The notes beneath the pieces were generated by a model. It did not search any database, was not told where the DNA came from, and saw only the letters and a program-made list of their open reading frames with translations. From assembly GCF_003595175.1 (NCBI RefSeq), contig NZ_CP032419.1, positions 2,418,001 to 2,482,000 on the forward strand: a stretch of DNA of 64,000 bases, written 5' to 3'. Position numbers and translations under genes: made by a program. Shown piece after piece: positions 19,817 through 33,086 of the stretch (position 1 is the first letter of the stretch; each line of letters begins with the position of its first letter). The stretch is from Pseudomonas cavernae (GTDB taxonomy: Bacteria > Pseudomonadota > Gammaproteobacteria > Pseudomonadales > Pseudomonadaceae).

Positions 19817-20218
19817 TAGTGGCGACCAGTTGCTGGCGTACTGCTCGCAGCGCTCCTGAGTCCGCCCCACGGGCTGAAGCTCGAGGAGAGCCGCCGGAAG
19901 ACCCGGGGCGACCGGGGGCCGAGGCGGAGCACAGGCTTTTGTAGGAGCGAATTTATTCGCGATTCTGGAGCGACTCCGCATAGCCCCTTGTCGCGAATAA
20001 ATTCGCTCCTACAGGAAAGGGCATTGCCTGCCAGGCCCGAATTTCTTATGCCCGCGCTTGCGAGGAGGGCAGGCCACGGTTTCTCGCGGAACGACCACAC
20101 TGTAAGAGGAGCCCGCAGGAGCCCGACTTCTGCGGTCGTTCGAATAGTCACTTGCTGAACGCCGGGGCGCAGGCCCGGCGGTTAGCGCTAGGCATCACTC
20201 GCATAGAGGAGGCTGATC
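19817..20218. other. Repeat-bearing intergenic region
   Basis: 402 bases between the DJ-1/PfpI and GFA genes. It holds an inverted pair of REP-like elements at 19940-20013 (listed separately). The remainder shows no credible gene; an AGGAGG-like site for the GFA gene lies at its right end. Confidence 0.6.
19940..20013. repeat. Inverted pair of TGTAGGAGCGAAT-type REP elements
   Basis: Two 23-base copies in opposite orientation (19940-19962 and 19991-20013), each itself partly palindromic (GCGAATTTATTCGC core), separated by 28 bases. The unit is the familiar Pseudomonas REP type; other copies occur at 21947, 22105, 22140, 31431 and 31486. Confidence 0.88.
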
Positions 20219-21946: not shown

Positions 21947-21969
21947 TGTAGGAGCGAATTCATTCGCGA
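21947..21969 (+). repeat. Single TGTAGGAGCGAAT-type REP element
   Basis: One 23-base copy with GAATTCATTC core, on the plus strand upstream of the NERD gene. Confidence 0.8.
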
Positions 21970-22104: not shown

Positions 22105-22162
22105 TCGCGAATGAATTCGCTCCTACAAGTGGGCACGCCTGTAGGAGCGAATTTATTCGCGA
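22105..22162. repeat. Inverted pair of REP elements at the aacS 3' end
   Basis: Copies at 22105-22127 (minus) and 22140-22162 (plus) in tail-to-tail orientation with a 12-base spacer. Placed just past the aacS stop codon, where such pairs commonly protect or end transcripts. Confidence 0.85.
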
Positions 22163-31061: not shown

Positions 31062-33086
31062 CTATCCACCGAACTCGCCGCCGCCGGTGGCCAGTTGCTC
31101 CAGCTCCACCAATGCCGCGCCTTCGCTGACCATGTCGCCCTCTGTGCAGTACAGCGCCTTGACCACGCCGGCATGCGGCGCGCGGATGCTGTGCTCCATC
31201 TTCATCGCCTCCAGCACCACCAGGGCGGTGCCGGCCTCGACCGCTTGGCCGGCTTCGACCAGCACGCGGACGATGCTGCCGTTCATGGGGGCGGTGAGGC
31301 CGCCGTGATGACTGTGGCTGGCTTCCACTGCGGCGATCGGGTCGAAGCGGGTGATGGCGTGCAGCTCGCCGTTCCACTCGAGATACAGGGTATCGCCCTG
31401 GCGGATGGCGTGCAGGCGGCGTTGTACCCCTGTAGGAGCGAACTTGTTCGCGATCGGGGATTCTGGCTGCGTCTGCGATGTCTCTTCGCGAATAAATTCG
31501 CGCCTACAGAACAGCGAAGCACCTTGGAGCTGGGCACTGCCAGTGGGGCGCACCTTGCGTTCCACGCCGTTGCAGACCAGATGCAGCTCGGTCTCCGCTG
31601 TCACCCCGGCACGCCAGCCGCTGCGGGCGTTCCACGGCGAGTGTGGATCGTCGCCGCGCACCTGGCTGGCTTCGCTCTGGATAAAGGCATCGGCGGCAGC
31701 CTGCCAGAACGCCTCCGGCAGTGCGCCCGGAGCCGGTAGCAGCACATCCTGGTGGCGCGGGATGAAGCCGGTGTCCAGCTCGGCGGCGGCGAAGGCCGGA
31801 TGGGCCAGCACGCGGCGGAGGAAGGTCAGGTTGGTTCTGACCCCGCCGATCAAGGTCTCGTCGAGCATGGCCAAGAGGCGCTGGCGGGCTTCCTCGCGGT
31901 TGTCGCCCCAGGCGATCAGCTTGCCGAGCATCGGGTCGTAGAACGGCGAGACCACATCGCCTTCGGCCACGCCGCTGTCCACTCGGCGGCCCGGGCCGGC
32001 GGCCGCTTCGCGATACAGAGCGAGGGTGCCGGCGGCCGGGAGGAAGTCGTTGTCCGGGTCTTCGGCGTACAGGCGCACTTCGATGGCGTGGCCATTGAGC
32101 GGCACCTGCGCCTGGCTGATCGGCAACGCTTCACCGCGGGCGACGCGGATCTGCCAGGCGACCAGGTCGAGGCCGGTGATGGCTTCGGTGACCGGATGCT
32201 CGACCTGCAGGCGGGTATTCATCTCCATGAAGAAGAAGTCGCCACGCGCATCCAGCAGGAATTCCACGGTGCCGGCGCCGACATAGCCGATGGCCTGCGC
32301 GGCCTTCACCGCCGCCTCGCCCATGGCCTGGCGCAGCTCGGGGGTGAGGCCCGGAGCCGGGGCTTCCTCGACCACTTTTTGGTGGCGACGCTGGATCGAG
32401 CAGTCGCGCTCGTTGAGGTACAGGCAGTTGCCGTGCTGGTCGGCGAACACCTGGATCTCCACGTGGCGCGGCTTGAGCACGTACTTTTCCACCAGCATGC
32501 GCGAGTCGCCGAACGCCGATTGCGCCTCGCGCTGGGCCGAGGCCAGGGCTTCGCCCAGTTCGCTCTCGCGTTCGACCACCTTCATGCCCTTGCCGCCACC
32601 ACCGGCGGCAGCCTTGAGCAGCACCGGGTAGCCGATGCCCGCGGACGCAGCGCGGAAGGTTTCCACATCCTGCGCCTCGCCGTGGTAGCCGGGCACCAGG
32701 GGCACGCCGGCATCTTCCATCAGCGCCTTGGCGGCGGACTTGCTGCCCATCGCGTCGATGGCTCTGGCGGGCGGGCCGAGGAAGATCAGCCCGGCGGCCT
32801 CGATGGCGCGGGCGAAGCCGGCGTTCTCGGAGAGGAAGCCGTAGCCAGGATGAATGGCCTGGGCGCCGCTGGCCTGGGCCGCGGCGATCAGCTTGTCGAC
32901 CAGCAGGTAGCTGTCGGCCGGTTTGGCGCCGCCGAGGTCGACGGCCATGTCGGCCTCGCGCACGTGGCGGGCGTCGCGGTCGATGGCGCTGTGCACGGCC
33001 ACGGTCTTCAGGCCGAGGGCTTTGGCGGTGCGCATCACCCGGCAGGCGATCTCGCCGCGGTTGGCGACCAGCAGGGTGGTGATCAT
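31062..33086 (-). CDS. liuD: Methylcrotonyl-CoA carboxylase, biotin-carrying alpha subunit, with in-frame REP insertion
   Basis: 674 residues: biotin carboxylase domain (VANRGEIACRVMRTAKALG; ATP-grasp loop AAAGGGGKGM; EMNTRLQVEHPVTEAITG), a BT linker region and a C-terminal biotinyl domain with the target lysine in EAMKMEHS (about residue 629). With LiuB it carboxylates 3-methylcrotonyl-CoA. Residues 527-552 are encoded by an inverted REP pair (31431-31508) that keeps frame; without it the length would be 648, near the ~655 usual for Pseudomonas LiuD. The insert sits in the linker before the biotinyl domain, so the enzyme may still work. ATG 33086 (MITTLLVANRGE) is chosen over 33149. Confidence 0.93.
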   Translation of the reverse strand: MITTLLVANRGEIACRVMRTAKALGLKTVAVHSAIDRDARHVREADMAVDLGGAKPADSYLLVDKLIAAAQASGAQAIHPGYGFLSENAGFARAIEAAGLIFLGPPARAIDAMGSKSAAKALMEDAGVPLVPGYHGEAQDVETFRAASAGIGYPVLLKAAAGGGGKGMKVVERESELGEALASAQREAQSAFGDSRMLVEKYVLKPRHVEIQVFADQHGNCLYLNERDCSIQRRHQKVVEEAPAPGLTPELRQAMGEAAVKAAQAIGYVGAGTVEFLLDARGDFFFMEMNTRLQVEHPVTEAITGLDLVAWQIRVARGEALPISQAQVPLNGHAIEVRLYAEDPDNDFLPAAGTLALYREAAAGPGRRVDSGVAEGDVVSPFYDPMLGKLIAWGDNREEARQRLLAMLDETLIGGVRTNLTFLRRVLAHPAFAAAELDTGFIPRHQDVLLPAPGALPEAFWQAAADAFIQSEASQVRGDDPHSPWNARSGWRAGVTAETELHLVCNGVERKVRPTGSAQLQGASLFCRREFIREETSQTQPESPIANKFAPTGVQRRLHAIRQGDTLYLEWNGELHAITRFDPIAAVEASHSHHGGLTAPMNGSIVRVLVEAGQAVEAGTALVVLEAMKMEHSIRAPHAGVVKALYCTEGDMVSEGAALVELEQLATGGGEFGG
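31431..31508. repeat. Inverted REP pair inserted inside liuD
   Basis: Unit one 31431-31453 (TGTAGGAGCGAACTTGTTCG...) and inverted unit two 31486-31508 (...AATTCGCGCCTACA) with a 32-base spacer. The 78 bases equal exactly 26 codons in phase and contain no stop in the liuD frame, adding a 26-residue peptide that begins CRREFIRE and ends NKFAPT. Confidence 0.92.

Follow-up and report, generated by a model that had tools for sequence, protein, structure and literature searches.

The liuD gene of the source genome very probably carries a lineage-specific, apparently tolerated insertion of a REPIN (an inverted pair of REP hairpins) that is read in frame as protein. It would be one case of a recurrent process that also reached recC and cobN, in which some copies have been kept across species. 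The source genome (G000) is a single contig of 4.95 Mb with a completeness of 100%, and the window, the whole stretch of DNA that was analysed, comprises 64,000 nucleotides (G000:C1:2418001-2482000). Within it, liuD was recognised from its open reading frame and Pfam matches as encoding the alpha subunit of methylcrotonyl-CoA carboxylase (MCC); its best match among solved structures is 3u9s, the P. aeruginosa MCC alpha subunit. The adjoining ORFs, presumably liuA, liuB, liuC and liuE, are open in the ORF list of the window. The features of the gene and the other members of the repeat family in the window are as follows.

31062..33086, minus strand: liuD, MCC alpha subunit, 674 amino acids.
31341..31715, minus strand: Pfam match to the BT domain of LiuD (PF21139, BT_MCC_alpha, residues 458-582), with the insert inside it.
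31431..31508, minus strand: REPIN, 78 bp, liuD codons 527-552, phase 0, stop-free.
31486..31508, minus strand: REP arm 1 in coding order, TGTAGGCGCGAATTTATTCGCGA, read C-R-R-E-F-I-R-E; 1 mismatch to the REP pattern.
31431..31453, plus strand: REP arm 2, TGTAGGAGCGAACTTGTTCGCGA in plus-strand orientation, its complement read A-N-K-F-A-P-T; 2 mismatches.
19940..20013, no strand assigned: REPIN of the same family; no frame has coding scores on both flanks.
22105..22162, no strand assigned: REP unit of the same family with arms facing apart; again, no frame has coding scores on both flanks.
21947-21969: single REP.

Counted from the ATG at 33086, the TGT at 31508 lies 526 codons on and the unit ends at 31431, which places it at codons 527-552. 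The 78 bp from 31508 to 31431 (TGTAGGCGCGAATTTATTCGCGAAG...GATCGCGAACAAGTTCGCTCCTACA) give residues 527-552, CRREFIREETSQTQPESPIANKFAPT. The initial annotation had read this segment as an inverted REP pair of exactly 26 codons in phase 0, and its sequence, coordinates and phase were right. Each arm is palindromic by eye, with a conserved head followed by a palindromic stem, and the two arms are inverted and closely spaced. A 90-nucleotide strand containing the REPIN folds far more stably than its shuffles (z = -3.9 as DNA, -4.4 as RNA). The 25-mer of the left arm has four matches in the window, itself included, at up to three mismatches, compared with none in 100 shuffles. Across the 4.95 Mb of the genome, the REP pattern TGTAGGAGCGAATTTATTCGCGA occurs in 106 copies (54 + 52) at up to three mismatches, while the reversed control gives 0. 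Both arms belong to this family, in agreement with the earlier proposal that a noncoding repeat has been turned into protein sequence.

LiuD loops do vary at this position (8 of the insert columns are filled in P. thermotolerans), but the idea that an ordinary loop of this lineage happens to look like a REP deserves almost no credence. The genome-wide family match already refutes it: the arms differ at 1 and 2 positions from a 23-mer that occurs 106 times in the genome and never in the control. The REPIN arrangement, its spacing and the strong fold contradict it as well. An assembly or sequencing artefact is very improbable as well: repeats are prone to misassembly, but the genome is a complete single contig, the reading frame is exact, the next-best genomic match of the 90-nucleotide query is merely 78% identical (query positions 5-90), and no other inverted REP pair among the 54 examined is 78 bp long.

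To the extent of our sample, the insert is restricted to this lineage. A LiuD match (E up to 1e-100) was present in 75 of the 76 genomes searched, with the source genome included and paralogues counted, and the nearest relatives of its LiuD in named genomes are from Pseudomonas (best 80 of 590 loci). The alignment comprised 72 open frames of 600-720 amino acids from loci at least 60% identical, with loci below 60% identity left outside it; 18 further stretches were added, and some species are represented twice. L123, from G034, was excluded because its frame is broken in the BT region by a frameshift, either real or a sequencing error (L123:1850-1930). We considered whether a REP lay in this broken frame; the locus has the frameshift but no REP, and G034 has 0 REPs of the liuD type. 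Across the 72 aligned sequences, the insert columns are filled in the source genome alone, with 26 residues; apart from P. thermotolerans, all others fill at most four. The 674 residues of this LiuD compare with 627-655 in the other 71, so both the unusual length and the confinement of the extra residues to this lineage, as first suggested, are borne out by the alignment.

The nearest sampled relative, G027, has a LiuD that is 88% identical and lacks the insert. The stretch that holds the insert measures 177 nucleotides in the source genome and 108 in G027; the matching stretch is 111 nucleotides in L031, L036, L002 and L122, and 123 in L054, L032, L003 and L004. Relative to the five nearest empty alleles (G027, L031, L036, L002 and L122), the net gain is therefore 66-69 nucleotides rather than 78, which implies that a few host codons were lost or have drifted. 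A clean 78-bp insertion is therefore not demonstrated: the empty site is not base-precise, and any account of the event has to include some local deletion or drift. The event had been called recent, which holds in the sense that it followed the split from G027; the meaning of the word is limited to that split.

The insert had been placed between the BT linker and the biotinyl domain, but it lies rather inside BT_MCC_alpha, where strands 524-527 and 556-563 flank it in the structural model. Between these two strands, the model gives a pLDDT below 50 for residues 536-552. The insert is thus probably a disordered loop, consistent with the flexible site proposed at the outset, and it occupies a BT beta-barrel loop where the length and sequence of LiuD already vary. 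When the sequences are aligned, the 655-residue chain of P. aeruginosa MCC alpha (PDB 3u9s/3u9t) lacks the insert. Between the source genome and G027, dN/dS is 0.16 for the complete gene and 0.19 for the part that lies downstream of the insert; liuD is under ordinary purifying selection. The BT domain holds the holoenzyme together, and an insert that lengthens the link between two of its beta strands could have inactivated or impaired liuD and set it on the way to becoming a pseudogene. We consider this unlikely, given the in-frame, stop-free insert, the low dN/dS on both measures (although a very recent loss would not show yet) and the open adjoining ORFs, and we infer that the enzyme has retained MCC activity.

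We took a census of one REP type, leaving out REPs with other stems in the source genome and G027. In the source genome it covered 54 stretches around REPs together with the window, holding 105 REPs (no more than three mismatches to one or other of two near-identical patterns), which is nearly the whole set. Units were classified by the codon-usage score on each side, with a threshold trained on nine window genes. Coding sequence on both sides in one open frame was found for three of the 61 distinct units, namely those in liuD and recC and a single arm in rmlB; the other 58 are not in coding sequence. This scarcity points to selection or targeting, in keeping with what is known of REPs. Inverted pairs number 54 in these stretches; they span 57-99 bp, most of them 70-74 bp, and the liuD pair is the sole one of 78 bp. 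Since 19 of the 54 have lengths that are multiples of three and every pair is open in one or more of the six frames, landing in frame is not very improbable. No gene split out of frame by a REP was found in the source genome or G027 when 150-bp flanks were searched for cases with both sides coding on the same strand, stop-free and in differing frames.

Two further ORFs with a REP at their N-terminal end, encoding a GNAT protein (L182) and a glyoxalase (L172), were rejected on codon scores that were not coding on both sides; their true starts are probably downstream, as the Pfam domain begins after the REP in each. Apart from liuD, recC and rmlB, the remaining long ORFs scanned that run over a REP have no Pfam match. 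The arm in rmlB (dTDP-glucose 4,6-dehydratase; L180:1537-1559, G000:C1:4742636-4742658) is a single REP-like arm whose stem, GCGAGC..GCTCGC, is of a different type. It lies in frame, at a loop that is shorter in most of the 30 sequences aligned.

The first reading implied that a coding REP would be a rarity, but the source genome itself has a second in-frame REPIN, in recC, and there are others in cobN of its relatives. The recC element is located as follows.

G000:C1:168199-168263 (L131:1500-1564): REPIN, in frame, in recC.

It sits in a 902-codon part of recC (TIGR01450, 710 bits). We sampled 30 recC loci from 59 genomes searched, eight of which, the source genome included, are at least 70% identical. 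Three of these eight near sequences (G000, G027 and G082) have an insert at this site. The G082 REPIN differs in its GGCC-rich stem; the spacer of the source genome matches that of G082 at 14 of 19 positions and that of G027 at only five of 19. A single gain combined with a loss in the ancestor of G013 and G028 makes a shorter history on the RecC tree than three gains, with relevant supports of 78-99; independent gains are possible.

In G027, the stretches examined hold 149 REPs at up to three mismatches to either pattern (the genome total for one pattern is 184), and two of 80 REP units are in coding frames, those in recC and cobN. The cobN unit (L217:13900-13977) is 78 bp, the only one of this length among 68 G027 pairs, and its peptide, GRSELIRD...ANEFAPT, is close to that of the liuD REPIN. 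A search of 76 genomes detected CobN in 52, and 31 of these were examined. An insert in the same variable stretch is present in 11 of the 12 genomes sampled, though not exhaustively, from another Pseudomonas clade (support 100); G047 is the one without. The in-frame elements of other species are at these loci.

L269, L271, L274, L275, L278, L281, L282, L284, L286, L287 and L327: in-frame cobN REPINs.

From TGT to ACA, nine of the 11 inserts measure exactly 89 nucleotides. In G005 (L327), the insert is longer than in sister species and its arms are rearranged and partly degenerate, with the frame kept. The four apparently independent insertions share a reading frame, TGT-RGG-AGC (GGT in G027 cobN, CGC for AGC in liuD). 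We give this no meaning, because more than one frame is usually open and four cases are too few.

The arms of the cobN inserts vary in type by species (GAGCTTGCTC, GAGCCTGCTC or GGGCTTGCYC) and still pair. We examined this pairing in the nine inserts of equal length, across 24 arm-to-arm pairs (216 cells) and against 500 shuffles. Standard pairs make up 98.1% of the cells, a value reached in 0 of 500 shuffles; 14 cells are changed on both sides (0 of 500), and six pairs have a double change (4 of 500). Pair types are no more numerous than expected from the shuffles (492 of 500). Alignments slid out of register give no double change. It is these slid controls and the double changes that carry weight, since shared ancestry too can exceed shuffles. 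The hairpins within each arm are 95.4% paired but show less covariation, with two double-change pairs, as many as in 185 of 500 shuffles. Because the two arms have changed together and still pair, the amino acids of both arms covary: in all ten non-degenerate CobN sequences, the left-arm residues E/G and L/P are matched by S/P and S/G on the right.

G021, G046 and G038 have a common spacer of 32 nucleotides (one substitution from G021 in G046, five in G038) and three arm types, which favours in-place change over fresh insertion; re-insertion in every species was rejected as the sole explanation, since the same spacer carries three arm types. We also counted exact copies of the three types in each genome, two of the three patterns having degenerate positions. 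The type in cobN is the commonest of the three in its own genome in seven of ten cases (shuffled expectation 4.0, P 0.044), and the mean genomic share of the carried type is 0.64 versus 0.37 (P 0.003), P values that are too small because the genomes are related. In G019, G046 and G038, the cobN type is not the commonest of the genome. Conversion from other REPs and arm-to-arm repair are both possible routes of change.

The presence of the cobN REPIN in 11 of 12 sampled clade species, and of the recC REPIN in three species, would also fit a benefit to the host, whether from a useful loop or, for instance, from slower translation between domains at an mRNA hairpin. We find such a benefit improbable: the elements are missing from close relatives (G047 for cobN; G013 and G028, probably by loss, for recC), some have arms that have drifted or been rearranged (G005 and G029 cobN, G027 recC), and the peptide as such is not conserved. 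A more novel reading, to which we give roughly even odds, is that coding REPINs keep evolving as DNA elements. One ancestral insertion into cobN would have kept its arms paired while their type changed between species, tending toward the common type of each genome. Ectopic gene conversion from genomic REPs, or arm-to-arm templated repair, would rewrite both ends of the loop in step and force an amino-acid covariation unrelated to protein structure, and the liuD copy would have joined that regime recently.

REP and REPIN elements of Pseudomonas are mobilised by RAYT (TnpA-REP) transposases and are typically, though not by strict definition, extragenic. The liuD element resembles them in its palindromic arms, its inverted pair, its hundred or so genome copies and the presence of a RAYT in the genome. 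Unlike the typical element, it is intragenic and read as protein. The one RAYT gene of the source genome (NF047646, 189 bits versus a cut-off of 80) is at G000:C1:765164-765712 (L141:7765-8313). Unlike a RAYT flanked by cognate REPs, it has no TGTAGGAGCG-type REP head in the roughly 2 kb to its left or right; a 10-mer that differs at one position, probably a chance match, is 2.1 kb away, and the nearest REP pair is at about 5 kb. As no such REP lies within about 2 kb, the link between this RAYT and liuD-type REPs is putative. The copy was most likely inserted by a RAYT-type transposase. We propose that a REPIN of the abundant family entered liuD after the split from G027 and landed in the variable loop of the BT beta-barrel. 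Divisible by three in length and free of stops in the frame that is read, it would simply have given the enzyme a 26-residue loop and left it functional. Selection after insertion would keep only open, in-frame copies in variable stretches. Rickettsia palindromic elements (RPE) are likewise inserted in frame in proteins, and the liuD repeat resembles them as a palindrome that adds residues at a tolerant site. It differs in belonging to other bacteria and another repeat family, and Pseudomonas REPs of the type searched lie mostly outside genes.

Selfish palindromic repeats thus enter core enzymes (MCC, RecC and CobN) as translated loops, and those in cobN have lasted through the radiation of a clade. 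They offer a natural test of DNA-level homogenisation, by conversion or hairpin-templated repair, as a driver of protein sequence, and a warning that structure prediction based on covariation could be misled where loop residues covary because of DNA palindromy. Because an insert-free relative is at hand, the liuD case provides a clean start for gauging the cost of a new insert.
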